From Selaginella tamariscina (lineage: Eukaryota; Streptophyta; Lycopodiopsida; Selaginellales; Selaginellaceae), in contig PUQB01000379.1 of the NCBI GenBank assembly GCA_003024785.1, positions 157,695 through 221,694 of the forward strand: 64,000 nucleotides of DNA, in the 5' to 3' direction. The notes below the pieces were generated by a model. The model was not told the DNA's origin and made no database searches. It saw nothing but the letters and a program-made list of their open reading frames with translations. Positions 589 through 59,243 of this stretch are shown piece by piece (within the stretch, counting starts at the first letter, position 1; every line of letters begins with the position of its first letter). A program made the translations under genes and the position numbers.

Positions 589-1136
589 TGTCACGACCCG
601 ATACAGGATGCAGGATACAGGATATGGATTACAGGATATGCCTATAGGATATACCTACAGGATATGCATGCAAGATATTCCTACAGGATATACCTACAAG
701 ATATTCTTATAGGATATGCTTATAGGATATACCTATAGGATATGCCTACAGGATATTTCTATAAGATATACCTACAGGATATTCCTACAGGATATGCCTA
801 TAGGATATACTATAGGATATGCTTAGAGGATAAGGGTCATTATTTTTAGCTCATGACCAGATTAGACATGACCAGATTAGCTTGGAGTTGTGAGTATAAA
901 AGCTCCGACCTAATTGTTGTACAATCAATTACTATTAGCATTAGTCTTTCTACGATCAATCTTGTCTTGTCTTGTTCTTGTCTTATCTTGCTCCTTGCCT
1001 CTTACTCTTGTCTTGTTTCTGGTTCTTAGTTCCTATCATGCTCTAGTTCCTGTCCTACTCCTTGTCCTACTTCTGAGTCAAGCTTCCTTATTTTCGGAAT
1101 CCTGCTCACTTCTTGTTCCTAAATCGTGGCTTGACA
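589..1136 (+). repeat. 5' LTR of C1
   Basis: TG...CA-bounded LTR of 548 bp. The first 250 bp are a degenerate array of ACAGGAT/ATAGGATAT words, most likely U3. A TATA box (tataaa, 895-900) precedes the expected RNA start. The last part is rich in TCTTG/TCCTG words. The primer-like motif present in C2 is altered here at two positions (near 924). Confidence 0.85.
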
Positions 1137-1138
1137 GT

Positions 1139-1151
1139 TTGATAGTAACTG
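1139..1151 (+). promoter_or_regulatory. Putative self-priming primer-binding site of C1
   Basis: TTGATAGTAACTG lies 2 nt after the 5' LTR, where a tRNA-primed element would carry TGG... It is the exact reverse complement of CAGTTACTATCAA at 6350-6362 in the C1 3' LTR, 28 bp downstream of the TATA box at 6322. See the finding on self-priming. Confidence 0.7.
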
Positions 1152-1233
1152 CTTTCATAGCTTTCCAATTTTCAGCTATTATTTTTTTCCTTGATTCTTC
1201 TCCTTCTTTTTCTCCTCTTTTTTTTCATAGATC

Positions 1234-4200
1234 ATGACCGATTTTGAGCAATTTCAACGCGAGCACCAAATATTGCTTCATGAGCTGGCCACTTTGCGCC
1301 AAGTGGTCACAGATCTGCAAGGTTTTACCAACACGGCGCATGCAGCTGCTGATGCATCTTCCAAGGCTGCTGCGCAGGCTCTTTCAAGCATCCGTGGTTT
1401 CCTCTCCATTGAACACTTCTTCGGAGCCAAAGATTAGCATATCAAAAAGTTCAATGGCAATCGTGCTAATTTACAAGGGTTTCTGAATCAGATCAGGCTT
1501 TTGATTCACATGCAACCACACTGCTACTCGACTGATGCACAAAAGGTTGGCCTTTTGGCATCCCTACTAGTTAGATCTCCATGGGCTTGGGTTGCTCCTT
1601 TGTTGAAGCGTGACGACCCATTGATGGAAGACTTTGAAGTTTTCGTGGCTGCCTTTGAAGCTTGCTTTGGAGATCCCGATAAATACCGTTCCGCATGCAT
1701 GAAGTTACGAAAGCTCACACAAGGATCTCGACCAACTTCCGTCTATGCATCCGAATTTCAGCAACTTTGCACGAACATTCCATAGGATGAAATTGCATTG
1801 ATTAAACACTTCCGTTTTGGGTTGAGGGATGACGTGAAGGACCTTCTTCTTACGTTACTGGATGCCAAACATTAGTGGAGATCATGCAGCAAGTTGTTCG
1901 CTGCGACAACATTTTGTTCGAGCGTCGTTAGGAAAAATCCCGTCAACAGTTCCTGCAAACCAATCCTGGAGCTGTGGTACATACTCTTGCGACACCTTCT
2001 GGAGTAGTTCCTATGGAGGTTGAGAAATACAAGCATGGCTCATTTTTTGCTGATGAGAAACAATGTCGCCGCAGTGAGAATCTATGTTTGTATTGTGGTG
2101 AAGCAGGACACAAGGCGGCGGAATGTCCTATTAAAGCCAAGAAGTTCAAGACGTGTGAAGTTGAAGCTTAAGTTCAGCCGGAAAACCTCAATGTTCACTT
2201 CGTCTAGGAGCCACGAAGTTGGACGTAGGTGCAGGCTCCATTGGTGCTGCTCATACCATTCCATCACTCAAGTTTCTTGTACACATTCATCTCAATAATC
2301 GAGAGCTCAAGGAGTTTGCCTGTTAAACACTATGCAAATGCATGCTTCATGGATACACTTTTGTAACTCAACATGGCATTTCGGTGGTGAAGTTGAAGTG
2401 CAGTTCTTATAAAGGTGGCCGATGGTTGTCTGATTGCTTCTGGCGCAGTTACCCATGCTACCAAACCTCTCTCTTGCAGTCATGGCTCATTCAACTGTTC
2501 GATTTCCTTCAACTTGATCAAGACTCAGTTGACTCCCATCATTTTGGGCATGCCATGGTTCATTGTTGCAAATCCTCAGATCGACTGGAGGTCTAGGACA
2601 CTCACATTTTCCTCTCTGGCAACTAGGATCAATCCTGTACCTTCCTGTGTGCAGGATACATCCTTAGTGTCTGAGGCAGTACAAGCTATAGGATTGACCC
2701 TGTTCTTATATCAGTGTTGAAGACTCCTCCTCGACAGGATTCACCTCATGTCAGTTCCTCAGCACATCCGCAGGCTCTCTCCACTCCTGTAAGTTTGCAG
2801 ATTCCTGTACAGGGTTCTTCCAATCCTGTATCAGTGTCGAAGGTTCCTCCTCAACAGGATCCACCTTTATTGGTTCGTCAGCACACTCACAGGCTCTCCT
2901 CACTCCTGTGCATCCACGGACTTCTATACAGGATTCTTCAATCCTGTACACTTTCAACATCACACATATCTCCCAATTGCCTCTTTTCATTACTCTTCTT
3001 CTATTCCACCCCCAAGATCCTTCCTCTTTTTCAATCACAGCTCCCTCCTTCTCCTCTCCGAGTTCTTACCACTACCATGCATGAACTTGCCACTGACCTG
3101 CTCCTTTTCATCTTTTTGCCTTCCAAGTAACTCCTACGTCCTCTTCTACCTTTCTGTATCTACTCCCCTGTTTTTCAATCTCCTTCTTCTGTTCCTTCTT
3201 CTCCTCTTCCTTCTTCCCTGCCATCCAAGTATCACTCCTTTAGGATGTTTTTGACAAGCACAAGGCTGCAGTTCTTCTGTTCACAGGTCCTACGACTGTC
3301 CTATCGATCTTGTGGAAGGAAAGACTCCACCATTCGGACGATTTATGCACTGTCACTACAGAATTGGAGGTTCTTCGTTAGTACATCGAGGAAACTTGGC
3401 ATCCGGCTTCATTCACACTCAAAGTCCCCTGCAGAGCACCTATCTTCTTTGTCAAGAAGAAAGATGGAGTTTACGTTTGGTTGTGGACTACAAAGGTTTG
3501 AATCAAGTCACCATTCGAATCGGTACCCGTTGCCATTGATCCGGAACTTCAATCGGCTGTAAGGAGCAAAGGTGTTCACGAAGATCGACTTACAGGGGCT
3601 TACAATCTTGTACGGATTCGTCCAGGCGATGAATGAAACTGCCTTTCGTACAAGGTATGGACACTTCGAGTACATGGTGATGCCTTTCGGACTTACCAAT
3701 GCCCCAACCGTGTTCCAACACATGGTGAACGACATCTTTCGTACTTCTTGGACCAGTTTGTGGTAATCTACCTCATGACATTTTATTTTCTCCAAGGACC
3801 AGGCTCATGACAAGCATGTATGACTAGTCTTACAGAGGCTTCGCGAGCATGGCCTGTATGCGAAGTTGGAAAGTGTTTCTTCGACAGGATACTGTGGAGT
3901 TCTTGGGCTACATCGTCTCTCCTATGGCGTTTCCATGGACATGCACAAGGTGAAGACTATCACGAAGTGGGACAGGCCCAAGTCTATACGAGACGTATAA
4001 TGTTTCCTTGGCTTTGCAAACTTCTACAAGCATTTCATACAGGACTTCTCCAAGCGTGTACTTCCACTCACAACTCACAAGCGCACAGGAGTGTTCTCTT
4101 GGTCCGACAAGGCGGAACATGCATTCACAACACTCAAGGACGCCTTCACAAGCTCCGATTTTAGCACATCCTGATCCTTCTCGTTTCTTCTTCGTTGAAG

Positions 4201-6112
4201 CAAATGCCTCGATTTTGTAGTAGGATCTGTTTTATCACAAGTTGGAGAAGACAAGTTGCTTCATCTGTAGCTTTTCACTCTCGTAAGTTCCTTTCGGTGG
4301 AGATCAATTACGAGATTCATGACAAGAACTCAAGGCCATTGTGATTCGTTCGAGGAGTGGCATTTCCTGGACTTACCATCCTAAATCAATTCTTACGGAT
4401 CACAAGAACCTGGAGTATTTTCAAACGGCTCGAGTTCTCAGTCGGCGACAGCTAGGTGGGCGGAGTTCCTATCACGTTTTGATTTTCATCATCTACAGGC
4501 CTGGTTTTCGAAATGGCAAGGCGGATGCATTGTTAGGCGCTCTTACCTTGCACCGACCCCGCATCCTGCATATACTGTCAAAAGCAAGTGTTGTTGGGTC
4601 TTGATCGACTTGACAAGTTCATCAGGCTCCAGCAGATTCCACACTCCTACAGGACATCCGTTTGCAGTTGGCTATAGACGACTTGGCAAAGTTTTCACAC
4701 ATTAGTCCTGACATCGCAAGTTCCTCTTCCTCCAGTTCTGTACAGACTATAAGTTGTTTGCCATACAGATGGACTCATGTACCAGGAAGGTCTCTTGTAC
4801 GTTCCTGTTGGTGTTTACAGGACTCATGTGGTATAGGATTGTCATGATACCCCGGCTACAGACATTTTGGTGTGGCCAAGACAATTGAGTTGGTGACTCG
4901 CAACTATTATGGCCTGGGTTGCAGGTTTTGTGGACAAGTTTGTACGGAGTTGTGACACCTGCAATAGGTCGAAGATGCCTCGTCACGCGCCTTTTGGTCT
5001 TCTTCGTCCTCTTCCTGCTCCTTCTACTCCTTGGAATTCATTTTTATGGATTTCCTCACAGATCTTCCTCCTTCTCGTGGATTTGATGCAGTTCTTGTGT
5101 GGTTGACCGTTTCACCAAACAGGTCATTTCCTACCATGTCACAAGACTGCTACAGGCCAGACAACCGTTGAGTTGGTGATCCGTGAAGTATTCCGACACC
5201 ATGGTCTCCTGAGAGCATTGTTTCTGATCGAGGTCCACAATTCATGTCCAAGTTTTGGCGAGAATTTCTCCGGAGTCTACAGGTTAAAGCGGACCTTTCT
5301 TCAGGATACCATCACAAACTGATGGGCAGTCAGAACGCACGATTCAAACCTTGAAGCAATATCTTTGCTGCTTCATTAGTTACCAACAGGACAACTGGTT
5401 GGACCTTCTTCCAATGGCGGAGTTTGCCTACAACAACTCCGTTCACGCATCTACAGGCCAGACACCTTTCTTTGCTCTTACAAGCTACCATCCACGTTTT
5501 GACTTTGCTCCTCCTGCTTCTCCTTCTTCTGCTCCTACAGTACAGGATCGTCTCCAGCATCTTCGTCAGGTACATGAGGATCTCCGGGTTCATCTTCAGC
5601 AGGCACAGGAACGGTACAAGCATCATGCTGATGCTCATCGTCAACCAGCACCTGCATACAAGATTGGTGCAGGTGATCTCGTCGTGGCATATTCGCACCA
5701 ACAGGCCTTCTTCTAAGTTGATTTTCAACGATTGGGCCCTTACAGGATTGCGGTTAGGTCAATCCTGTAGCTTTCCGACTCGAGTTACCATCTACGGTGA
5801 AATTCATCTTGTTTCACACCTCTTTGTTGGAGCCGTATCATCCTTCTTCTCTTCCTGGTCGTGCTTCTTCTCCTCCCCCTCCTATGGTCATTGACAGTGA
5901 ACCTGAGTACAAAGTTGCAGCCATCCTTGATTCTCGTCTTCATCACCGCCAATTCAATACTTGGTGGATTGGAAAGGTTATTTGACTACCGATCGCACTT
6001 GGGAACCTATATCCAACTTACTCCATGCTTCTTCCAAAGTTGCTCTTTCCATCGGCATTATCCTGTTAAACCAGGTCCCAAGACTCGTGGAACTCGTCTT
6101 AAGAGGAGGTGC
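1234..6112 (+). pseudogene. Decayed gag-pol of C1
   Basis: Gag begins at ATG 1234 (MTDFEQFQREHQ) and carries a CCHC zinc knuckle (CLYCGEAGHKAAEC) near 2085-2130. RT pieces lie near 3470-3770 (MPFGLTNAP), RNase H near 4300-4530, integrase zinc-finger and core pieces at 4850-5480, and chromodomain remnants near 5880-6100. No reading frame stays open across a whole domain. Order and sequence follow C2 closely, so C2 is the best reference for it. There is no coding potential. A short purine-rich tract (aagaggaggtgc) abuts the 3' LTR at 6113. Confidence 0.88.
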
Positions 6113-6552
6113 TGTCACGATCTGATACAGGATGTAGGATACAGGATACGGGTTATAGGATATGCCTATAGGATATGCCTGCAAGATATGCCTACAGGAT
6201 ATTCCTGATATACCTACAGGATATACCTACAGGATATGCCTATAGGATATACTACAAGATATGCCTAGAGGATAAGGGTCACTATTTTTAGCTCATGACC
6301 AGATTAGCTTGGAGTTGTGAGTATAAAAGCTCCGACCTAATTGTACAATCAGTTACTATCAACACCAGTCTTTTACGATTAATCTTGTCTTATTCTTGTC
6401 TTGTCTTGCTCCTTGCCTCTACTCTTGTCTTGTTCCTAGTTCCTAGTTCCTAGTTCCTGTCCTGCTCCAGTTCTTGTCCTGCTTCTTGTCCTGCTTTTGA
6501 GTCAAGCTTCCTTGTTCTCGGAATCCTGCTCACTCTAGATCGTGGCTTGACA
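6113..6552 (+). repeat. 3' LTR of C1
   Basis: 440 bp, TGTCACGA...TTGACA. TATA box tataaaag at 6322-6329; primer-like CAGTTACTATCAA at 6350-6362. It is shorter than the 5' LTR because part of the ACAGGAT array is missing. Confidence 0.85.
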
Positions 6553-8548: not shown

Positions 8549-9871
8549 TCAAAAGTCGTTCCCTTTGAGCTGAACGTCCTGGCTCAAAATGTCGTTGCTA
8601 ACGGGATCCACTTTAATGTCGTAGCCTACTGCAGCCTGCAACTCATCAACCATTACAAATAAAAAATTTGCACACAACCAAACCAACCCACACTTACCTT
8701 GATATGTGGTTTCAACCACCAAATGCCCATATTCCCATTAAACTCAATCACAGCGTTCATAGGAACTTCCCTCTTGGAAACATCGCTCAGAAGCTGTGCC
8801 GAGTTATAAGCAATCTCGGCTCCTCTCAGATTCAAATTGGCTTGAATGGTGGACGCGTCCCGAGCTGCAATCTCACCCCCATCAAGTTCTCCCCTGCAAA
8901 CTTCGTAGCCGTAGTAAAACACGTATACCGTGATCTTGTCGTATTTGACTCCCACCACGTTTCTGTTTCTAATATTGAGCTCCAGGGAAAAGTTAATGTC
9001 CAATACCACTTCAGGGATGTAGGAATTCTCTGCAAATTTGCTGTCTGCTGATAGGCCCAGAAGCTGGAAATTCTGCACTGTGATCTCCGGAATCTTCGGC
9101 CACAGTATCCAAACCACTGTCGCCAGCACAAGGAGCCCAACTCCCACCACCAAAGCAATCATGTACCAATTGCTCATTGAAAACTTGCTTTTGCTCAGCA
9201 GCAAAAGCAAGGGGTGTTCCACCAATTCTGGTCCTCCTGCCCGGCACTGCTCCTGGAGAATCTCATTGTTGCTTAGATCGACAACCAGATAACAGGACAC
9301 CGTGCCCTGGATGGATTCCAAATGGTTAGTAGAGATACCATTTGAGCTTGCAAGGAAAACTGACCTTAACGTGTGGATTGAGTAAAAGAATTCCAATGTT
9401 ACCCGAGAAATCAGCTGTAATGGTCACTGGAATTAAATTACGAGAGGCATCCGAGATGAGCTGAGCAACATGCTTGACAGCTGTCACGCCTTCTACTTTG
9501 ACATGAGCAGTGAGGTTGACAGAGCTCCTGGCAGGAAGGGCCGATGATTTAGAAGACGCAGTGCCAATCTCATCACCACGGTAGGAAATGTAGAGCATGA
9601 GCTGATCATAGCGGATGCTAAAGAAGTTGAGGTTGTTCGCTTCAATCCACATAGCAAGTTCAACATCCAGGTGCACTCCTGAACTTGTGTTTACATTCAT
9701 TCCTTTCAAGTCCACATTTACAACACGGATCTCAACTTGTCTAGGCCACAGGAAGAATACTGAAATTGCCAGCGTCAGAAACACCAAACACAGACACCAT
9801 GGCTTTAAACGTATCCTGCCACTTGATCGCGGCTGCCGATAGTAGGAGGGAAGCTCCTCGTAATCAGCCAT
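8549..9871 (-). CDS. Double LEA2-domain membrane protein (two LEA14/NHL-like units in one frame)
   Basis: Three exons: 9365-9871, 8698-9306 and 8549-8635. Introns are 58 and 62 bp, both GT-AG and both phase 0. The product is about 400 aa. ATG 9871 opens MADYEELPSYYR, then a membrane segment (about 23-42, ending in FFLWPRQ) and a LEA2 domain ending NPHVK. Exon 2 completes that domain (VDLSNNEILQEQC) and then runs on without a stop into a second membrane segment (MIALVVGVGLLVLATVVW) and a second LEA2 domain ending KPHIK; exon 3 supplies DPVSNDILSQDVQLKGNDF. Each unit has its intron at the same place, so this is a tandem duplication whose first stop codon was lost, or two genes if an internal start at 9177 is used. 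LEA2/NHL proteins are membrane-anchored stress and defence proteins; the role here is inferred from family. Confidence 0.85.
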
Positions 9872-9902
9872 CCCTTCCTTGTGGTTAATCTGGGGTTAGT
9901 CC

Positions 9903-15038: not shown

Positions 15039-16937
15039 TTAATTCTTTACAGCTGCATTGGGAGTCAATGAATGGAACAAGTCAGCCAGCATAGTCTCCA
15101 CGTTATGAGCCGACAATCTTGCAGGAGAGGGGTCAATGAGCGGTGCATAGCTCTGAAGGTAGCTCCTGTAAGCTGGGATGACATCGTGTACAATAGCGGA
15201 TCTCGTGGCGTCGCATAGCTCAGCGTCAGGGATGACACAGCCACGGTGCCTACGGCAAGTCTCCTCAAGCACAGTAGCAAAGTTGTCCAGCCTTTGTTTT
15301 ACAAGCTGACGGGATGCATCAGCAGCTGAGAGTCCCAAGAAGAGTCCCTGTTGCCGACTGACCTGTACAAGCACATTTCCCCACACTTGCTTTTGGTAGC
15401 TCAAGCCATGCTGCTGCACACTTATGCGCCTCTCACGCAACCACGGATCGCCGTTTACCAGCAGCTGCTGCATACTTCTCATCCGCTTAAATACAAAATA
15501 AGCATTGTTCATGAGGAAGATCCGCTGCTGCACCGGCTCTTTGTACTGTTTGCTCTTTGCATCAAGTGCCGTCTCCAAGCTGCTCATAATCTCCTTGAAC
15601 GAGCTTTCCAGCAGGTTTTTGCTGGATACTTTCTGGCTTCTCCAGCTTGCCTCAATCCGCAGCACCTGCTCCATGATGGGGCTATAAAACTCAGACATGA
15701 TATGCTTGAGGTATTCAACAACATAGCTGCTCAGTTTGTCCACCCCTGCATCCTGGGGCGGGCTGTGATTTGGGTTTGCAATCATGTACTTGAAGTTTGA
15801 GAAACTCTTAGCTGCACCGTCCACCACCAGCTTGTGGAGCTCCCTAGTACGGATCCGGATACGGGAGCAGCACGGACCCTGTCCCCTGAACAAAAGCTCG
15901 GATACCAGGCTGCTAACATTCTGGAGACTCTCAAACATGTCCAGCAGATTGAAGAGCTTATCTACTGACTTACAACTGGCAACTTGACCCTCTCCGAAGT
16001 CAAGGAGGGAGCTCATCCCTGGCATTCCCACCCTTGCAACACATTCGGTCAACAACTCCTCCTCCATGACTTCCCCAAACACCTTGCAACACAGGTTCAT
16101 CTCCCCCATGTACAAAACTTCTACCAATACCTGAAAGGTGGCACTCCATTCCTCCACACTGTTGAATAAATGTTGCAAGTTGTTGATTGTTTCGATACGC
16201 TGTTCTTCGTACATTTGTATGCATTTCTCCAACACTGGAGGGGAGATGGCAGCTACGCCCTTGGCTATCATTTGCAGCTTCTGCACGGTAGAGACCCTCA
16301 CAGGCATGTACTCATGCTCCTTCCCCTTTTTCTTCTTCTTCTTCCTAGCCCTCTTACGTTGCTGCTCCTCATGCTCCTTGGTGAGCTTGGCCATTTCAAT
16401 TGGACAGGCATTATCCTGGAGTAGCCTCCCAAATTCCATTTGCAACTTGTCCAATGCCACATCCATGATCTGAGCACCCACTGCCAGATCATCGCCCAAG
16501 TTCTCATTCTTCTTATCAAATGTTGTTTTCGTTGCAGCAGCATAAGAGTGAAATGCCCGGTGAAGACATTGCAGAGTCCCTGGGCAATTGGTGCGGAGAT
16601 ATGTGAGGGTCTCATCCAGGGTCTGAACTGCGACCAAGTAGCTGCCGATGTCCTGGTGCGGGTCCCCGAGCAGGATTTTGTCCTTGAGCTGCTTCAATTG
16701 TTCAAATCTCTTCAGAACACAAGCTGCTGACTTAAGAGCTACATCTTTCTGAAAATCTGCCTTGTCTACTTGCTCTGAAGCCCTAGGGGCAAACCTGGCT
16801 CGCAACGTAGGCAGCCTATTCCCAATTTTCTCCAGCCCAATGTGGACCTCTTCTAGCCCAGAAGCCACATTTGCGGCCTTAGACATGGATTGCCTCAGCA
16901 ATTGCACTAGCTCTTCTTGCTGATCCGTCTTTCCCAT
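15039..16937 (-). CDS. EXO70: Exocyst complex subunit EXO70 family protein
   Basis: An uninterrupted frame of 632 aa from ATG 16937 to TAA 15039, normal for plant EXO70. EXO70 binds membrane phosphoinositides and tethers secretory vesicles to the plasma membrane within the octameric exocyst. The N-terminal third is helical and charged. A lysine run (KRARKKKKKKGKEHEY, about 200-215) sits in the linker. The conserved C-terminal part includes ELHKLVVDGAAKSFSNF, the IFLMNNAYFVFKRM segment (family form LFLMNN-HYIV), a DPWLRERR segment and VIPAYRSYLQSY near the end, followed by the usual terminal helix (NVETMLADLF). The frame extends to 16955 with a splice-acceptor-like sequence, so a 5' UTR exon is possible; the ATG at 16937 is the first in frame. 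It lies downstream of FATA on the same strand with 347 bp between. The family copy (A-H) is not decided here. Confidence 0.9.
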   Translation of the reverse strand: MGKTDQQEELVQLLRQSMSKAANVASGLEEVHIGLEKIGNRLPTLRARFAPRASEQVDKADFQKDVALKSAACVLKRFEQLKQLKDKILLGDPHQDIGSYLVAVQTLDETLTYLRTNCPGTLQCLHRAFHSYAAATKTTFDKKNENLGDDLAVGAQIMDVALDKLQMEFGRLLQDNACPIEMAKLTKEHEEQQRKRARKKKKKKGKEHEYMPVRVSTVQKLQMIAKGVAAISPPVLEKCIQMYEEQRIETINNLQHLFNSVEEWSATFQVLVEVLYMGEMNLCCKVFGEVMEEELLTECVARVGMPGMSSLLDFGEGQVASCKSVDKLFNLLDMFESLQNVSSLVSELLFRGQGPCCSRIRIRTRELHKLVVDGAAKSFSNFKYMIANPNHSPPQDAGVDKLSSYVVEYLKHIMSEFYSPIMEQVLRIEASWRSQKVSSKNLLESSFKEIMSSLETALDAKSKQYKEPVQQRIFLMNNAYFVFKRMRSMQQLLVNGDPWLRERRISVQQHGLSYQKQVWGNVLVQVSRQQGLFLGLSAADASRQLVKQRLDNFATVLEETCRRHRGCVIPDAELCDATRSAIVHDVIPAYRSYLQSYAPLIDPSPARLSAHNVETMLADLFHSLTPNAAVKN

Positions 16938-17284
16938 CTCCAAGCAAGCCTGCAATTGTTGAATTGAAGCTAAAGCACATTGGCATTTGCCATTAACTAC
17001 CTAGTAGTGAATCTCACCTTGGGAAGCACCTAGTGGAGGCACCTTGGCTTGTTGCTTTTTCTAACTTTAGTGCTTCTCCTACCACCAACATCACCAACAA
17101 ACTTGGAAACGAAATGTGAACAGCTTTGAAAGTTCAAAGTCAACTAACCCACACGCACTCTCTGCCAGCCTTGCAATGCAAAAATTTTGGTGCGCTCTTG
17201 ATTATTTCTTTTTTTCCTATTCTTTAGAAGTGAGAATGAGTAACAAAAAAAAGACATCTCTCTCCGTTATTATCTCCCAGATGC
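16938..17284 (-). promoter_or_regulatory. EXO70 promoter region / FATA 3' flank
   Basis: 347 bp between the FATA stop and the EXO70 start. No distinct TATA box was picked out. It carries T-rich runs on the plus strand (16990-17240). Confidence 0.4.
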
Positions 17285-26574: not shown

Positions 26575-28183
26575 TGTCAGAGTTTTAACCCAAAGGGCAA
26601 CACGTGGCATCACGTGGCTGCCAGGTGGCCATTCGGCGTCATCACCCTGTGTGAGCAACGCTAAGTTTCCCAGAACAACCCCAACGACCCCTAGGGTTAG
26701 ACTCCAATGCCCAAGTGGACATGAGACTTAGGGTTTAGCCTAAGTCTCCCTAGAATGTCTGCCCCAGAACTTGAGGGATAACCCTAGTTGACTTAGGTTT
26801 AGCCTAAGTCCCTAGAGTGTCTACTCCCAAAACCCTTGAGGGATAACCCTAGTTGACTTAAGGTCTTGCCCTAGAAGACCTAGACAAGCTCATGCCCTAA
26901 CCCCCATCAAGGAGACGTGTGTTCCACACATACCCCTGGACAAGCTAAGGCATCGTCATTACCCTTGAGGAATCACCCTCATGGGAGTACAACCCTTTAG
27001 GGCGACAAGGGGTACCCTGAATCACAAAACCCCTAAGGGTTTGAGTGGCCAGTTATACCTTAGACCTAGGGCTAGTACTTAGTGAGGACACGAGTGTGTG
27101 CCGTAGGCAGACACGAGTGTTCTACTAAGCAAACTCCCTAAGGCTAGGTTTGGGATAACCCTAAACACATGACCTTGCGAGTGCCTTACGAAAGGGCTCC
27201 TGCTAACATGTTTAGGTTGTTCAACCCTTGAATTCCAAGGAAAACAACTCCCCCCTAGCCAAGTGTGCCAAAGCACACCTAGTTATGAGACAACCTCCCT
27301 TGAGCGGATGCCCAAGGCTTAGCACCCTAGTGCAAGCACAAGCATGTCTGTTTGCTAAGTATCCAACCCCTTAAGCCCATGACATAACCCCAAAGGGCGT
27401 GCCTCAGGTTGTACATGTGACGTTTAGCCCAGTGTCACATCTCCATGTGACACTCGATGTGGGCTATCATGCCATAGCCCTTAGATTCAAGAGTTGCACC
27501 AAGTGCCACAAACGTGGCTCCTAAATGCCAACTCTAGAACCCTCAATTATCCCTCAAGACTCGGTAAGGAAACCTGTCAATCAAGAACCCACACCCACAG
27601 TTGGACAAGGACACGATGCCTGGTTAGTTGAGTGTTGCTCCTAGCTTGACGTGGAGGAGGAGGCTGGAGACAAGCCTCAACCTTTGCTCTTGGAACGTGC
27701 ATCCCACAAGTCCTCCAGGCATGGATTCAACGTTAAGGGTAAGCTACCCCGAAGGTGGGACGTACCCCTGTTGTCTAAGTTAGGGCGGTACAACAGAGGG
27801 TTGTACCTTAACGACACAAGCTGAAGCTTGCACCGGCAGAAGAGCAACGAACTCATCATGAACCCAGGAGCTCTCCCATATACTCTACCTTATTTATGTG
27901 ACGGAGCCCCCCCCCCTTGTTTTCCTATATGAGTAAGTGGGTGGCACTGAAATGCTAGCCCTTAGAGAAAATGAGTTGTCCAAACCTAACCCTAAACCTA
28001 ACCCCTAGGGGGGGTTTAGGCGTGGGGTTAGGTCAACCCTAGAGGTGTCCCTAACCCTTATTTTGACAAGCTATACTTTGCAAAAAACCCTAACCTGGAA
28101 CGTCAAAATGGGGGAGAGTTTTCTAAATGGAAGTGCTAGCTTCGCCTAGAGTTTCTTGCAAATACCTAACGACACCCGGCCGG
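26575..28183 (-). repeat. 3' LTR of LARD-A, first segment
   Basis: Start of the left type II LTR. It is interrupted at 28183 by C2 and resumes at 34607-34733. It is about 50 bp shorter overall than the 5' LTR through scattered small deletions. Confidence 0.85.
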
Positions 28184-28852
28184 TGTCAAGCCACGATCCA
28201 GGAACCAGGAAGAGAACAGGATTCCAAGGACATGAAGGCTTGACTCAGGAACAGGACCGAGAGCAGGACAGGAACTAGGAATAGGAACAGGACGGATCTA
28301 GAAGCAAGACAGGATCAGGATAGGATCCGGGAGCAAGACAGGAAAGCACAGGATAGGATCCGGGAGCAAGACAGGAACAGGACAGGATCCCGGAGTAGGA
28401 TAGGATCCAGGAACAGGACAGGAAATAGGAGCGAGACAGGAACATGACAGGAAACAAGACAAGAACAAGACAAGATAAGATTGATCGTAGTAAGACTGGT
28501 GTTGATAGTAACTGATTGTACAACAATTAGGTCGGAGCTTTTATGCTCACAACTCCAAGAGCTAATCTAGGCATGCATGCAAAAGTGGTTGCATGCATGC
28601 AAAAGTGATTGCATGCATGCAGAGGCTAAGATGAGTCCACATGTCCCTTATCCTCTAGGCATATCCTATGGCATATCCTGTAGGAATATCTTGTAGGAAT
28701 ATCCTGCAACCGAATCCTGTGTCCGGAATCCTGGTAGGAATATCCTGTAGGAAAATCCTGCAACCCATATCCTGTATCCGGAATCCTGTAGGAAAGTCCT
28801 GCAACCCATGTCCTGTATCCGGAATCCTGTATTCTGTATCGGGGTCGTGACA
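28184..28852 (-). repeat. 3' LTR of C2
   Basis: Gene-strand start TGTCACGACC. Left of the TATA box (gene strand cataaaag, about 28537-28544) lie three near-identical units with CATGCATGC (28572-28622). The U3 start is an array of ACAGGAT words, and R/U5 is full of TCCTGTC/CTTGTC words. Confidence 0.92.
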
Positions 28853-28863
28853 GCACCTCCTCC

Positions 28864-31800
28864 CTAAAGACGAGTTCCACGAGTCTTGGGACCTGGTTTA
28901 GCAGGATAATGCCGATGGAAGGCAGCAACCTTGGAAGAAGCATGGAGTAAGTTGGATGCAGGTTCCCAAGTGCGATCAGTAGGCAGGTACCCTTTCCAAT
29001 CCACCAAGTATTGGAGTTGGTGACGATGAAGACGAGAGTCAAGGATGGCTGCGACTTCGTACTCAGGTTCCGTGTCAATGACCACAGGGGGGGAGGAGAA
29101 GAAACACGACCGGGAAGAGAAGAAGGATGATACGGCTCCAACAAAGAGGTGTGAAACACAGGATGAAGTTTCACCGTGGATGGTAACTCGAGTCGGAAAG
29201 CTACAGGATTTACCTCCGCCACGATCCTATAAGGGCCCAATCGTTGAAAATCCAACTTAGAAGAAGGCCTGTTGGTGCGAATGTGTCGACGAAGAAGCCA
29301 CACGAGATCACCAATCTTGTATGCAGGTGCCGGCTGACGGTGAGCATCAGCATGATGCTTGTATCGTTCCTGTGCCTGTTGAAGATGAACCTGGAGATCA
29401 TCCTGTACCTGCCGAAGATGCTGAAGACGATCCTGTACTGCAGGAGCGGAAGAAGGAGAAGCGGGAGGAGCAAAGTCAAAACGTGGATGGTGGCCTGTAA
29501 GAGCAAAGAAAGGTGTCTGTCCTGTAGATGCGTGGATGGAGTTGTTGTAGGCAAACTCGCCATTGGAAGGAGGTCCAACCAGTTGTCCTGCTGGTAACTG
29601 ATGAAGCAACGAAGATACTGTTCTAAGGTCTGAATTGTGCGTTCGGACTGCCCATCGGTTTGTGGGTGATATCCTGAAGAAAGATCCGCTTTGACCTGTA
29701 GACTCCGAAGAAGCTCTCGCCAAAACTTGGACATGAATTGTGGACCTCGATCGGAAACAATGCTCTCAGGAAGACCATGATGTCGGAACACCTCGCGGAT
29801 CACCAACTCGGCAGTTGTCTGACCTGTAGCTGTCTTGTTGCAGGGTAGGAAATGAGCCTGCTTGGTGAAACGGTCAACCACCACAAGAACTGCATCAAAT
29901 CCACGAGAAGGAGGAAGATCTGTGAGGAAATCCATAGAAATGGATCTCCAAGGAGCAGACGGAACAGGAAGAGGACGAAGAAGACCAGAGGGTGCATGAT
30001 GAGGCATCTTCGACCTGCTACAAGTGTCACAACTCCGTACAAACCTCTCCACAAAACCTCGCAACCCAGGCCACCAATAGTTGCGAGTCACCAACTCCAC
30101 TGTCTTGGCCACACCAAAATGTCCTGTAGCCGGGGTATCATGACAATCCTGTACCACACGAGTCCTGGAAATACCAACAGGAACGTACAGGAGACCTTCC
30201 CGGTACAGGAGTCCATCCTGTATGGTGAACAGGTTGTAGTCTGGACGGGAACTGGAGGAAGAGGAACTTGCAACGTCAGGATGAATGTGTGAGAACACAT
30301 TCTTTGCCAAGTCGTCTGTAGCCAACTGCGAACGGACGTCCTGTAGGAGTGTTGAATTTGCTGGAGCCTGATGAACCTGCAGTGCCGCAAGCCGGAAACG
30401 ATCAGGACCCAACAACACTTGCCTTTGACCGTCAAATGCAGGATCGCCCGGGCTTGGTGCAAGGTAAGAGCGCCTAGACAATGCGTCCGCCTTGCCATTC
30501 CGAAAGCCGGGCCTGTAGACGATGACGAAGTCAAAACGTGATAGGAACTCTGCCCACCTAGCCTGTCGCCGACTGAGGACCCGAGCCGTTTGAAAGTACT
30601 CCAGGTTCTTGTGATCCGTAAGAACTTGTACAGGATGTGCAGCACCTTCCAGGAAATGCCGCCACTCCTCAAACGAATCCACAATGGCCTTGAGTTCCTT
30701 GTCATGAATCTCGTAGTTGATCTCCGCCGACAGGAACTTACGAGAGTGAAAAGCTACAGGATGAAGCAACTTGTCCTCTCCAACTTGCGATAGACGGATC
30801 CTACTGCAAAATCCGAGGCATCTGCTTCAATGAAGAAAGGATGAGAAGGGTCAGGATGTGCTAAAATCGGAGCTGTCGTGAAAACGTCCTTGAGTGTTGT
30901 GAACGCGTGTTCCGCCTTGTCGGACCAAGAGAAAAGTCCTGTGCGCTTGGTGAGTTCTGTGAGTGGAAGTACACGCTTGGAGAAGTCCTGTATGAACCGC
31001 CTGTAGAAGTTTGCAAAGCCAAGGAAACATTGTACATCTCGTACCGACTTGGGCCTCTCCCACTCCACGATGGTCTTCACCTTGTGCATGTCCATGGAAA
31101 CGCCAGCAGGAGAGACGATGTAGCCCAAGAACTCCACCGAATCCCTATCGAAAAAACACTTCTCCAACTTCGCGTACAGGCCATGCTCGCGAAGCCGCTC
31201 TAAAACTAGTCGTACATGCTTGTCATGTGCCGCCTGGTCCTTGGAGAAAATCAAGATGTCGTCGAGGTAGATCACCACAAACTGGTCCAAGAAGTCACGG
31301 AAAATGTCGTTCACCATGTGTTGGAATACAGCTGGGGCATTGGTAAGGCCGAAAGGCATTACCGTGTACTCAAAATGTCCATACCTTGTACGAAAGGCAG
31401 TCTTCCACTCATCGCCGGGACGAATCCGTACAAGGTTGTAGGCTCCTCGTAAGTCGATCTTCGTGAACACCTTTGCTCCTCGCAGCCGATCGAGAAGTTC
31501 CGGGATCAATGGCAACGGGTACCGATTCCGAATGGTGACTTGATTCAAACCCCTGTAGTCCACAACCAAACGTAAACTCCCATCCTTCTTCTTGACAAAG
31601 AAGATAGGAGCTCCTGCAGGGGACTTTGAGTGACGAATGAAGCCGGATGCCAAGTTGTCCTCGATGTACTGACGAAGAACCTCCAACTCTGTGGGTGACA
31701 ATGCATAAATCGGTCCGAATGGTGGAGTCTTTCCTTCCGCAAGATCAATAGGACAGTCGTAGGACCTGTGAACAGGAAGAACTGCAGCCTTGTGCTTGTC

Positions 31801-32890
31801 AAAAACGTCCTTAAAGTCGTGGTACTTGGATGGTAGGGAAGAAGGAGGAGAAGGAGAAGGAGAAGGAGAAAAAACAGGGGAGTCGGATACAGGAAAGGTA
31901 GAAGAGGACGTAGGAGTTACTTGAAAGGCAAAAAGGTGGAAGGGAGCAGGATCAGTGGCGAGTTCATGCATGGTAGTGGTAAGAACTCGGAGAGGAGAAG
32001 GAGGGAGCTGTGACTGAAAAAGAGGAAGGATCTTGGGGGATGGAACAGAGCAGGGTAACAGAGAAGCAGAGGAACAGAAAGAAGCAGGATTGGAAAAAAC
32101 CTGTGTGGGTTGATGAGTGTACAGGATTGGAAGAATCCTGTACAGGAGTCCGTGGTTGCGCAAGAGTGGAAGAAGCCTGCGAATGTGCTGACGAATCAAC
32201 AGGAGGTGGATCCTGTTGAGGAGGAACCTTCGACACTGATACAGGATTGGAAGAACCCTGTACAGGACACCGCAAACTTACAGGAGTGGAGAGAGCCTGG
32301 ATGTGCTGAGGAACTGACATGAGGTGAATCCTGTCGAGGAGGAGTCTTCAACACTGGTACAGGAACAGGCACGGTCAATCCTGTAGCTTGTACTGCCTCA
32401 GATACTAAGGATGTATCCTGCACGCAGGAAGGTACAGGATTGATCCTAGCAGTTGGAGAGGAAAACGTGAGCGTCCTAGACCTCCAGTCGATCTGCGGAT
32501 TTGCAACAACGAACCATGGCATGCCCAAAATGATGGGAGTCGACCGAGTCTTGATCAAGTTGAAGGAAATTGAACAGTTGAATGTGCCATACCTGCAGGA
32601 GAGAGGTTCGGTAGCATGGGTAACTGCACCAGAAGCAATTAGACGCCCATCGGCCACCTCTACAGGAACTGCACGCTTCAACTTCACCACCGAAATGCCA
32701 TGTTGAGTTGCAAACGTGTCATCCATGAAGCATGCATTTGCACCAGTGTCTAACAAGGCAAACTCCATGAGCTCTCGATTATTAAGATGAATGTGTACAG
32801 GAAACTTAAGTGACGGGATGGTATGAGCAGCACCAATGGAGCCTGCACCTACGTCCAACTTCGCGGCTCCTAGACGAAGTGGACATTGGA
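28864..32890 (-). pseudogene. pol: pol of C2 (PR-RT-RH-INT-chromodomain), a few frameshifts
   Basis: Protease at 32196-32858 has the active site LLDTGANACF. A Ser/Pro-rich linker with repeated [18 protein letters not shown] units follows. RT (30754-32199) has [18 protein letters not shown] and the catalytic YLDDIL. RNase H has EADASDF and [16 protein letters not shown]. Integrase (29210-30769) has an HHCC finger ([16 protein letters not shown]) and the DDE core ([28 protein letters not shown]). A GPY/F-type module and a chromodomain (YLVDWKGYLPTDRTWEP) close the protein at 28864. Frameshifts lie near 32290, 32200, 30795, 29560 and 29085, so as printed it is not one open frame. Homopolymer base errors could explain some of them. 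Confidence 0.88.
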
Positions 32891-33847
32891 GTTTTCCGAC
32901 TGAACTTCAGCTTCAACTTCACGCGTCTTGAAGTTCCTGGCTTTAATAGGACAATCTGCCACCTTGTGTCCTGCTCCACCACAATACAAGCACAGGTTCT
33001 CACTGCGACGACGTTGCTTCTCGGCAGCGGAAAGAGAGCCACGCTTGGATTTCTCAACCTCCATAGGAACTACTCCAGAAGGTGGTGCAGGAACATGTAC
33101 CACAGCTGCAGGATTGGTTTGCAGGAACTGTTGACGGGATCTTTCCTGACGACGCTCGAACAAACGGTTGTCGCAACGAACAGCTTGTTGCATGATCTCC
33201 GCTAATGTTTGGGCATCCGGTAACGTAAGGAGAAGGTCCTTCACGTCGTCCCTCAACCCAAAACGGAAGTGTTCGATCAATGCAGTCTCGTCCCATGGAA
33301 TGTTCGTGCAAAGTTGCTGAAATTCGGATGCATAGACGGAAGCTGGTCGGGATCCTTGAGTGAGCTTCCGTAACTTCGTGCATGCAGAACGGTACTTATC
33401 AGGATCTCCAAAACAGGCTTCAAAGGCAGCCACGAAACCTTCAAAGTCTTCCATCAATGGATCGTCACGCTCCAGCAAGGGGGCAACCCAAGCCCGTGGA
33501 GATCCACTTAGTAAGGATGCCAAAAGACCCACCTTTTGAGCATCAGTCGAGTAGCGCCGTGGTTGCATACGGATCAAGAGCCGGATCTGATTCAGGAAAC
33601 CTTGGAAATCGGCACGATTACCACTGAACTTCTCTGGCATGCTAACCTTCGGCTCCGAAGAAAAGTTTGATGAAGAGGGAACCACCGATGCCTGGGAGAG
33701 AGCCTGCGCAGCAGCCTTGGAGGATGCATCAGCAGCTGCATGTGCCGCAGTGGTGGAACCTTGCAGGTCGGTGACCACTTGGCGCAAAGTGGCCAGCTCA
33801 TGAAGTAGCATTTGGTGCTCGTGTTGAAAACGCTCAAAATCAGCCAT
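32870..33847 (-). CDS. gag: Gag of C2
   Basis: An intact frame of 325 aa from ATG 33847 (MADFERFQHEHQ), about 90 bp inside the 5' LTR. The first 70 residues form a coiled-coil-like helix. A Ty3-type capsid region follows (YRSACTKLRKLTQGSRPASVYASEFQQL), then one CCHC zinc knuckle (CLYCGGAGHKVADC) near residues 290-303, preceded by a basic stretch (KQRRRSENL). The frame ends in TAG at 32870. The protease frame overlaps it in the -1 position, so frameshifting could join them, although no classical slippery heptamer was recognised. The alternative is a small lesion at the junction. Confidence 0.9.
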   Translation of the reverse strand: MADFERFQHEHQMLLHELATLRQVVTDLQGSTTAAHAAADASSKAAAQALSQASVVPSSSNFSSEPKVSMPEKFSGNRADFQGFLNQIRLLIRMQPRRYSTDAQKVGLLASLLSGSPRAWVAPLLERDDPLMEDFEGFVAAFEACFGDPDKYRSACTKLRKLTQGSRPASVYASEFQQLCTNIPWDETALIEHFRFGLRDDVKDLLLTLPDAQTLAEIMQQAVRCDNRLFERRQERSRQQFLQTNPAAVVHVPAPPSGVVPMEVEKSKRGSLSAAEKQRRRSENLCLYCGGAGHKVADCPIKARNFKTREVEAEVQSENSNVHFV

Positions 33848-33925
33848 GATCTAGGAAAGAAAAAAGGAGGAAAATGAAGGAAAGGAATCAAGAAAAAGGT
33901 AGCTGGAAAACGGAGAACTATGAAG

Positions 33926-33938
33926 CAGTTACTATCAA
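33926..33938 (-). promoter_or_regulatory. Putative self-priming primer-binding site of C2
   Basis: On the gene strand TTGATAGTAACTG begins 2 nt after the 5' LTR. It is a perfect 13-nt complement of CAGTTACTATCAA, which starts 30 bp downstream of the TATA box in the same LTR (34254-34266). No TGG-type tRNA site is present at this place. Confidence 0.7.
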
Positions 33939-33940
33939 AC

Positions 33941-34601
33941 TGTCAAGCCACGATCCAGGAACCAGGAAGAGAACAGGATTCCAAGGACATGAAGGCTTGA
34001 CTCAGGAACAGGACCGAGAGCAGGACAGGAACTAGGAATAGGAACAGGACGGATCTAGGAGCAAGACAGGATCAGGATAGGATCCGGGAGCAAGACAGGG
34101 AATCAGGATAGGATCCGGAGCAAGACAGGAACAGGACAGGATCCCGGAGCAGGACAGGATCCAGGAACAGGACAGGAAATAGGAGCGAGACAGGAACAGG
34201 ACAGGAAACAGACAAGAACAAGACAAGAAAGATTGATCGTAGTAAGACTGGTGTTGATAGTAACTGATTGTACAACAATTAGGTCGGAGCTTTTATGCTC
34301 ACAACTCCAAGAGCTAATCTAGGCATGCATGCAAAAGTGGTTGCATGCATGCAAAAGTGATTGCATGCATGCAGAGGCTAAGATGAGTCCACATGTCCCT
34401 TATCCTCTAGGCATATCCTGTGGCATATCCTGTAGGAATATCCTGTAGGAATCCTGCAACCGAATCCTGTGTCCGGAATCCTGGTAGGAATATCCTGTAG
34501 GAAAATCCTGCAACCCATATCCTGTATCCGGAATCCTGTAGGAAAGTCCTGCAACCCATGTCCTGTATCCGGAATCCTGTATTCTGTATCGGGTCGTGAC
34601 A
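33941..34601 (-). repeat. 5' LTR of C2
   Basis: Near-identical partner of the 28184-28852 LTR. TATA box at 34290-34297, primer-like motif (TTGATAGTAACTG on the + strand) at 34254-34266, CATGCATGC triplet array at 34323-34375. Confidence 0.92.
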
Positions 34602-34606
34602 GCCGG

Positions 34607-34733
34607 ACCATACTAGATACCAAGTGCACTATACGAGCCTGTTTCTTCTACATCTAGGGTTCGTCACATAATTCAGTAGGTAACAACAGTCAACATCCAA
34701 AGTAAAAGAGGAGTCATAATAGAAACTATGACA
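34607..34733 (-). repeat. 3' LTR of LARD-A, second segment
   Basis: Remainder of the left LTR after C2 and its duplicated GCCGG. It ends ACTATGACA next to the polypurine tract. Confidence 0.85.
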
Positions 34734-37700: not shown

Positions 37701-38477
37701 GTAAACTATTCCACCTAATGTTACTTGCAGCTAGCATCATCAAAATATTGCGAACATCAGACAATACTTTGACTACATTGGATCTTCAAACCCATTGCTT
37801 AACATATTTCATATGTTAATATTTGACATTCTTGTATTATAAGTTCATCACCATAGTCTGCTTCTGAGTTACACTCTGGAAAACATGCACTATAATGAGA
37901 GCTTATTTTACACACTTTGTCAAAATGTAGTGTTCATCTTATGTTTGAATATGCCCCTTCTCCCAAGTCAAAGATGCACTTCTGAACATAAGTCTTTCCC
38001 CGTTTGAACACTATTGGAACCGATATTGAATCTTGACATAGCCAAAACTCAAAGGACATTGTCGTTCTCAAATCATGTGTTATCCCAAATTCAAACACCT
38101 TAAAGAAAAAGAAAAATTTTCAATAATGTGTAGACTTAGGATATCACAAGATCCACTTCACAAGACTTAGTTTGTAAGCCAGAACAAACTAACATGCCAC
38201 GTCTTGTGGAATATGGTAAAGTAACCTGGACAAAGGTAACCTGGCATACAACTTGGAAGTGCTTCCAAGTGCTACCTTCTAAGTCCATAACCCACACCCA
38301 CTTATGAAGTAGGTGTACTCTGAAGAGTTATAGATCTCAGGACCAACTCTCCACGCAGAATTCAGACATTAGCCGAAAGTGATAGAGTACTTCAAGAATT
38401 TAGAACTAACTAAACCCTAAAATACACTACACTTTAGGTAGTCCTACTGACCGCAGAGAATAGGCTCCGATACCAAT
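34734..38477 (-). mobile_element. LARD-A interior: AT-rich non-coding sequence packed with inverted repeats
   Basis: 3,744 bp with no recognisable protein; the longest frames (under 90 codons) show no domain. The first 350 bp from 34734 and about 130 bp next to the primer site (38345-38463) match element D. Between them (about 35.8-38.3 kb) short perfect inverted repeats follow one another every 30-120 bp. Examples: 35797-35851 (two stacked 8-bp stems), 36496-36518 (10-bp stem, 3-nt loop), 36521-36544, 36579-36600, 36908-36933, 37121-37142, 37501-37520, 37604-37628, 37799-37819, 37928-38013 (nested), 38159-38208 (nested), 38251-38270. LARD-B carries a diverged copy. Confidence 0.8.
38464..38475 (-). 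promoter_or_regulatory. tRNA-iMet primer-binding site of LARD-A
   Basis: TGGTATCGGAGC on the gene strand, 2 nt from the 5' LTR. It matches the common plant initiator-Met site (TGGTATCAGAGC) but for one base and is identical to the D site. Confidence 0.88.
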
Positions 38478-59231: not shown

Positions 59232-59243
59232 GCTCCGATACCA
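59232..59243 (-). promoter_or_regulatory. tRNA-iMet primer-binding site of D
   Basis: TGGTATCGGAGC on the gene strand, 2 nt from the 5' LTR, one base off the common plant iMet site. Confidence 0.88.

Follow-up and report, generated by a model that had tools for sequence, protein, structure and literature searches.

We analysed a 64,000-nucleotide (nt) stretch of the Selaginella tamariscina genome (contig PUQB01000379.1, positions 157,695 to 221,694; hereafter the window, whose own coordinates are used throughout), which carries on its minus strand a Ty3/gypsy long terminal repeat (LTR) retrotransposon, copy 1 of a family here termed C. Copy 1 is very probably a chromovirus of the Tf1/sushi group, probably of the plant Tcn1 clade, whose reverse transcription is primed by the folded-back 5' end of its own RNA. 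Four observed features carry this reading, namely the layout of the primer-binding site (PBS) and its complement in the LTR, the occurrence of matched variants of the two, the linkage of these variants within copies, and the variability of the nucleotides at the junction that directly follows the PBS.

The primer-binding site and its complement in the LTR

In copy 1 the sequence TTGATAGTAACTG (33926-33938, minus, i.e. gene strand) lies 2 nt past the end of the 5' LTR (...GGCTTGACA/GT/TTGATAG...), and its exact 13-nt complement, CAGTTACTATCAA, is present in the 5' LTR (34254-34266) and again in the 3' LTR (28502-28514). The TGG of a tRNA-type site is absent from the first 20 nt past the 5' LTR of copy 1. 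A previous sequence-only reading had described this complement, its position beside the LTR end, the lack of a TGG site and a primer site downstream of the TATA box; both coordinates and sequence were reproduced, and A34265 follows the first base of the TATA box CATAAAAG at a distance of 32 nt. It is in the length of the pairing that we depart from that description: the exact 13-nt match is real, but a 12-nt primer starting at A34265 fits better. Because base 33926 sits in the junction that differs between copies, the 13th pair (C34266-G33926) probably falls outside the primer, and the helix is probably better taken as 12 bp, formed by AGUUACUAUCAA with TTGATAGTAACT. The available text of Neumann et al. 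2019 (PMC6317226) predicts self-priming for those elements in which the PBS is complementary to the element's own LTR over at least 10 bp and begins 0-5 nt past the LTR; copy 1 shows such a complement over 13 nt at an offset of 2, and does not show the TGG... site, complementary to a tRNA 3' end, of tRNA-primed plant chromoviruses.

As the sites are short and the LTR repetitive, a chance complement in one copy has to be considered. By composition, 7.6e-6 exact 13-mer complements are expected in the LTR (4.6e-5 for six offsets), and in 20,000 dinucleotide shuffles of the copy 1 LTR the longest leader complement was 12 nt (in one shuffle), 13 nt never being reached. Since the arrangement is also met with in over 1000 copies and in families whose sequences differ (see below), the probability of chance appears negligible. 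Simple repeats overwhelmed a blind scan of the 249-kb contig, which was discarded.

The RNA spanning R, U5 and the PBS of copy 1 is predicted to fold with the primer helix closed (z score -2.6; 0/100 shuffles as stable). When U5 is folded by itself, both window copies of the family are predicted to form an inverted repeat, GTCAAGCC/GGCTTGAC (one C fewer in copy 2), that stops next to the end of the LTR. A second helix, joining the part of R after the primer to the U5 end, occurs in the minimum-energy folds of copy 2 and of the related loci L001, L002, L006 and L008 described below, and is absent from the full folds of L003, L024 and copy 1; we accept it only tentatively. These structures might be taken to mean that the complementary sites form a helix with another role, such as packaging, dimerisation or translation control, with priming left to something else, as the R-U5-PBS fold is stabler than all 100 shuffles and an R-U5 helix or U5 hairpin adjoins it. 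However, one arm of the primer helix occupies the place usual for a PBS, with 2 nt between it and the LTR end, in an element without a tRNA-type PBS, and such a role does not predict the varying nucleotides found just past the PBS beside a constant leader. We therefore consider this explanation extremely unlikely.

Matched and linked variants in family C and its relatives

The assembly to which the window belongs spans 300.7 Mb in 1391 contigs. A DNA search with a 421-nt query spanning TATA box to leader gave 3189 candidates, and the 40 that were scored match 418 nt or more of it at 95-100% identity; the exact primer and PBS were found in 20/20 fetched of those 40, which are among the copies most similar to the query, PBS included. 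A 19-mer made of the LTR end, the PBS and the following G has 1181 exact sites genome-wide, and a primer 17-mer has 3126, with no site for the reversed control of either. In a sub-lineage of family C both sites differ. One copy, L171, carries a changed primer, AGTTACAATCAA, together with a changed PBS, TTGATTGTAACT: there is one change on each side, and 12/12 positions are still paired. L171 was not chosen for its primer: it is among five copies absent from the canonical PBS list that were retrieved through the position of their RNase H. The variant primer 17-mer occurs at 174 sites and the variant PBS 19-mer at 39, of which 24 could be checked among the 100 variant primer sites listed. At 21 of these 24 the variant primer lies 196-353 nt upstream on the same strand, and at 3 it is absent. 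Conversely, the 44 canonical PBS sites on contigs where the canonical primer and PBS listings overlap have the canonical primer upstream in 26 cases, the variant in 1 and neither exact form in 17. The Fisher value of this linkage, 1e-12, assumes independent copies, which these are not. A mixed copy was also seen at C1:945465 and C1:945682 of G000, with the variant primer in its 5' LTR, a canonical PBS, and a canonical primer about 5.6 kb downstream; it has perhaps arisen through recombination or gene conversion.

A second family of the same genome, E, has the same layout with a different pair of sequences, the primer AGAATCATTCAA and the PBS TTGAATGATTCT. Sixteen stretches upstream of RNase H matches (related element) included 7 of family E and 1 of family C, plus one with a family E PBS by motif and one with a family E primer only.

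Further relatives were sought in the genome contigs of bacteria and archaea, among which eukaryotic contaminants occur. The scan gave 61 loci (L001-L061), among which two pairs have identical integrase rows; with the two window copies, and with repeat fetches dropped, the set comprised 63 loci. Many bacterial and archaeal assemblies carry retrotransposon contigs that resemble eukaryotic contamination, and scans of viral contigs with the integrase gave no confirmed relative. The layout is shared by L001, L002, L003, L006 and L008, all from a bin labelled uncultured Trichormus, and by L024 from another bin. All six have an LTR that ends in GACA, then 2 nt and TTG..., with the complement 31-33 nt after the TATA box. 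A C stands before the A of the primer, whose last bases are CAA; CAC comes next, or CGC in L024. With the A taken as its first base, the primer measures 12 nt in L001 and in both family C and family E, and 11 nt in L002, L003, L006, L008 and L024; the self-primer of Tf1 is about 11 nt. The layout is also present in L067, from the same bin as L001, with a 9-nt check, and was not found in L004, L016 and L018. The Trichormus-bin contigs are perhaps from the fern Azolla, judging from the species name Trichormus azollae. In L002, L003, L006, L008 and L024 (the last with one mismatch) an extra PBS-like sequence stands between the TATA box and the proposed RNA start, which thus lies inside an inverted repeat, e.g. 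GTTCGCCTTG...CAAGGCGAAC.

An initial scan for complements of at least 11 nt gave many matches that lacked a TATA box or LTR end and were mostly due to chance. A loose layout (ACA, offsets 0-3, TATA box) was found in 9/63 loci against a shuffled mean of 2.7 and maximum of 6, with 0-5 for controls with other motifs; a strict layout (GACA plus 2 nt) was therefore used. The strict layout is present in 8/63 loci, whereas 300 shuffles averaged 0.37 and never exceeded 2; the figure is not a rate, as most other loci are of other clades or incomplete. One of the eight, L009, is a weak case without the TTG/CAA ends and with sites about 60 nt apart, and L049 has a 9-nt match only; both were left out of the two seven-row counts that follow.

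The PBS pairs at 11/11 positions with its own LTR and at 6-9/11 with the LTRs of other families, the exceptions being copy 2, with 9 against its own decayed 5' LTR, and L002, L003, L006 and L008, which cross-match at 10-11. In seven distinct pairs (window, L171, family E, L001, L002, L008, L024) 97.6% of the cells are paired, against 63.3% when shuffled and 26-45% when slid, a figure to be discounted to a degree when weighing self-priming, since most rows were found by asking for a 9-11 nt complement and the pairing is partly by construction. Within the same seven, 9/12 pairs are changed on both sides and the covariation is 0.960 against 0.230; that number of pairs changed on both sides was reached by 17/500 shuffles, and that of further pair types by 2. 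An alternative set of seven, to which the same reservation applies, gave 95.2% paired and a covariation of 0.754. The 300-shuffle layout test, which is the fairer one, and the variant copy L171 are free of the above selection.

The PBS/leader junction and the proposed mechanism

The junction was studied mainly in family E, using 43 stretches, 8 of which came from the first sixteen (kept as family members) and 35 from RNase H position alone. Five lacked the LTR, 38 had the region and 35 were parsed with the exact 12-nt family E PBS, L132, L141 and L148 being those that were not. Between the PBS and the leader GTAGTG, the 35 copies have GG (8), G (7), AG (7), GAG (6) or rare forms (7). Expressed as the chance that two copies differ, diversity at the junction is 0.82 (34 copies keeping the first leader bases), whereas the 126 columns of R-U5 average 0.018, with a highest value of 0.39, and the next 20 columns of the leader give 0.000 (33 copies). 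The variable point is the end expected for a copy of an RNA that starts at the A of AGAATCATTCAA. This suggests that the junction marks the place where plus-strand strong-stop synthesis runs off the primer RNA, at whose 5' end nucleotides would be added or trimmed. We consider it rather probable that each new copy bears such a run-off scar, in the form of 0-3 mostly purine nucleotides added or lost after the 12-nt PBS. In family C the junction is G in 20/20 of the closest copies, and the count of 1181 itself requires this G; among less selected stretches, L129, L170, L177, L180 and L182 differ at the junction, and L169, L171 and L189 have G followed by C. In one further set, 14/20 stretches lacked a readable primer/PBS pair.

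Taken together, a mechanism can be proposed in which transcription would start at A34265 and the first 12 nt of the RNA would, by folding back, pair with the PBS that lies 2 nt beyond the 5' LTR. The RNA would then be cut after CAA and before CACC, presumably by the RNase H of the element, and the freed 3' OH would prime minus-strand DNA. In Tf1 it is RNase H that frees the self-primer from the mRNA. Plus-strand strong-stop DNA would copy the primer up to its 5' end, so that in every new copy the PBS would be made afresh from whichever RNA 5' end was in use, with 0-3 scar nucleotides at the point of run-off. Transcript start, cleavage, priming and run-off are steps that we infer from the sequence; the claim that Tf1/sushi-like self-priming occurs in a plant chromovirus is itself strongly supported by the related families, family E, the linked variant and the junction scar.

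The principal competing explanation is that a tRNA, or a fragment of one, primes at the copy 1 PBS, the LTR complement being secondary or due to chance. Two tRNA-Met-like sites in the window speak for it: TGGTATCGGAGC lies 3 nt after GACA at the LTR end of another window element (59232-59243, minus), and the same site follows a further LTR end (38464-38475, minus). TGGTATCGGAGC has one mismatch to the tRNA-Met PBS. A pattern scan for the tRNA-Met PBS is at chance level (6 matches against 5.2 expected), and it is the position at LTR ends that makes these two sites likely; the host therefore probably supports tRNA priming. No tRNA gene was detected by ARAGORN in the window or elsewhere on the same contig. 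For copy 1, on the other hand, a tRNA primer does not sit well with the lack of TGG from the 20 nt that follow the LTR, with unrelated PBSs in different families that each match their own LTR, with a PBS variant that travels with the matching LTR variant, or with variability starting at the point where the predicted 5' end of the RNA would be copied. We consider it very unlikely.

Several further points weigh against self-priming. The comparison with tRNAs was confined to the TGG (3'-CCA) rule, and tRNA-primed elements may also be variable after the PBS, where three sites in the window differ, though these are unlike in age and family. The primer/PBS linkage may stem from one ancestral double change. 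Strong junction variability is clear in family E only, and the transcript start is placed from TATA spacing (31-33 nt) and the CA step. The layout is missing from 6/16 of the stretches upstream of RNase H matches, L005 lacks a matching primer and is a counter-example, L186 has an altered PBS, and two further copies on the window's contig have a broken layout, the PBS being mutated in C3 and deleted in C4. Finally, the strict layout was set after the first matches had been seen, a concern answered in part by a control with all 256 tetramers, in which GACA gave 11 loci and the next best 4, three contigs being counted twice (L062, L063 and L066 are the DNA of L002, L001 and L003).

Architecture, host context and known or predicted self-priming elements

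The domain content of copy 1 (Table 1) includes a chromodomain at the integrase C-terminus, which is a mark of the Tf1/sushi group including the plant Tcn1 clade; the stretch EYEV...DWKGY, read by eye, may hold the aromatic cage of the plant Tcn1 chromodomain. The two LTRs differ by a Kimura two-parameter distance of 0.012 (8 substitutions over 661 sites; 8 gap columns). As its coding region is spread over several frames, copy 1 is probably non-autonomous. It seems to have inserted into, and split, the LTR of another element (26575-28183 and 34602-34733). Copy 2 is older than copy 1, and its TATA box is TATAAAAG. Among six open reading frames (ORFs) scanned with Pfam, host genes are represented by two adjacent LEA_2 domain ORFs (8653-9895, minus) and by Exo70, for which the best of the 9 proteins listed comes from Selaginella moellendorffii (43% over residues 250-640), followed by Gb_28526 (34%).

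Table 1. Features of the window discussed in the text (TSD, target-site duplication).
Feature	Position	Strand	Remarks
LTR retrotransposon, family C copy 1 (C1), Ty3/gypsy chromovirus	28184..34601	-	LTR pair, TSD, gag, protease, reverse transcriptase, RNase H, integrase, chromodomain
Copy 1 5' LTR	33941..34601	-	661 nt
Copy 1 3' LTR	28184..28852	-	669 nt
Copy 1 TSD CCGGC, 5' side	34602..34606	.	
Copy 1 TSD CCGGC, 3' side	28179..28183	.	
Copy 1 TATA box CATAAAAG	34290..34297	-	
Proposed self-primer AGTTACTATCAA, putative first 12 nt of RNA	34254..34265	-	PBS complement; linked variants
Same primer segment within copy 1 3' LTR	28502..28513	-	
Copy 1 PBS TTGATAGTAACT	33927..33938	-	
Spacer GT, LTR end to PBS	33939..33940	-	2 nt, as in related families with the layout
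PBS/leader junction nucleotide	33926	-	G in copy 1; site differs among copies
U5 inverted repeat, 5' arm GTCAAGCC	33994..34001	-	predicted; U5-only folds of copies 1 and 2
U5 inverted repeat, 3' arm GGCTTGAC	33942..33949	-	predicted; U5-only folds; adjoins LTR end
Copy 1 polypurine tract AGGGAGGAGG	28856..28865	-	named by position, immediately upstream of 3' LTR
Copy 1 gag	32870..33847	-	Retrotrans_gag, Ty3_capsid
Copy 1 ORF with aspartic protease matches	32196..32906	-	
Copy 1 ORF with reverse transcriptase and start of RNase H	30754..32277	-	RVT_1
Copy 1 ORF with RNase H and integrase	29210..30826	-	H2C2, rve
Copy 1 chromodomain-like stretch	28867..29109	-	PF00385, 6.9e-15
Copy 1 SH3_Tf2-1 domain	ORF 28626-29765		PF24626; ORF adjoins chromodomain stretch
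Family C copy 2 (C2)	589..6552	+	LTRs 589-1136 and 6113-6552; TSD GCTGT
Copy 2 PBS, exact	1139..1150	+	13-nt form 1139-1151 identical to copy 1
Copy 2 decayed primer site in 5' LTR, CAATTACTATTAG	926..938	+	
Copy 2 exact primer site in 3' LTR	6350..6362	+	
Exo70 gene	15039-17000	-	

In a tree of the integrase region (77 rows), copy 1 falls in a 23-row clade (support 99 in the Shimodaira-Hasegawa-like approximate likelihood-ratio test, SH-aLRT) within a 46-row group (88) that includes a catfish and a frog protein; the tree has no named Tcn1 or Tf1 row, and is rooted on two other window elements, which are outside the group by construction. On the side of the vertebrate sushi-type elements, a catfish and a frog protein (P0058, P0070) are among the named relatives in the 120 best listed integrase matches, with 47% identity in the matched part. 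With Tf1 of Schizosaccharomyces pombe and with Tj1 the element shares a PBS complementary to the mRNA 5' end, here a putative one, and RNA structure near the PBS, here a predicted one; unlike them, it is from a host that is not a fungus. Tj1 of S. japonicus has this same layout according to the accessible part of PMC4600332, and a U5-IR-like structure (IR, inverted repeat) near the PBS is required in Tf1, going by the title of a work cited there.

The sequence-only reading knew of no described plant example, which does not hold. In the portions available to us, Neumann et al. 2019 (PMC6317226) report that most plant Tcn1-clade chromoviruses lack a tRNA PBS and predict them, relatives from mosses and club-mosses, to be self-priming, and extend the prediction to TAR-lineage Ty1/copia elements (Houba, Osr-1), which resemble copy 1 in being predicted plant self-primers and differ in superfamily; the word "fern" is absent from the main text as available. 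Copy 1 resembles the plant Tcn1 clade as a Ty3/gypsy element with a chromodomain, from non-seed plants, with no tRNA PBS and with a PBS complementary to its own LTR; what was a prediction in the accessible text of that study is here joined by matched families, linked variants and the junction scar. Within the genus, SM-Tcn1 of Selaginella moellendorffii showed evidence for neither tRNA priming nor self-priming in the accessible text of Novikova et al. 2010 (PMC2864245), and other Selaginella chromoviruses have tRNA-Met PBSs in that of a 2012 paper (PMC3350952). Neither junction scars nor linked primer/PBS variants in plants were found among literature titles and abstract openings, a search outside which most subscription journals lay. 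The family of copy 1 is hence a well-supported addition to plant elements already predicted to be self-priming; what is newer here is the run-off scar, together with the linked variants.

Self-priming in plant chromoviruses has hitherto been a sequence prediction (PMC6317226), and the priming mode of SM-Tcn1 was left open (PMC2864245), as far as the accessible parts of these papers go. With its many copies, matched primer/PBS variants and junction scar, the family takes this prediction close to a natural genetic test and offers a testable system. It also fits the idea of a priming mode common to fungal, vertebrate and plant chromoviruses. If the interpretation of the junction is true, the genome would record the transcript 5' end of each transposition event, and self-priming would be readable from DNA alone.

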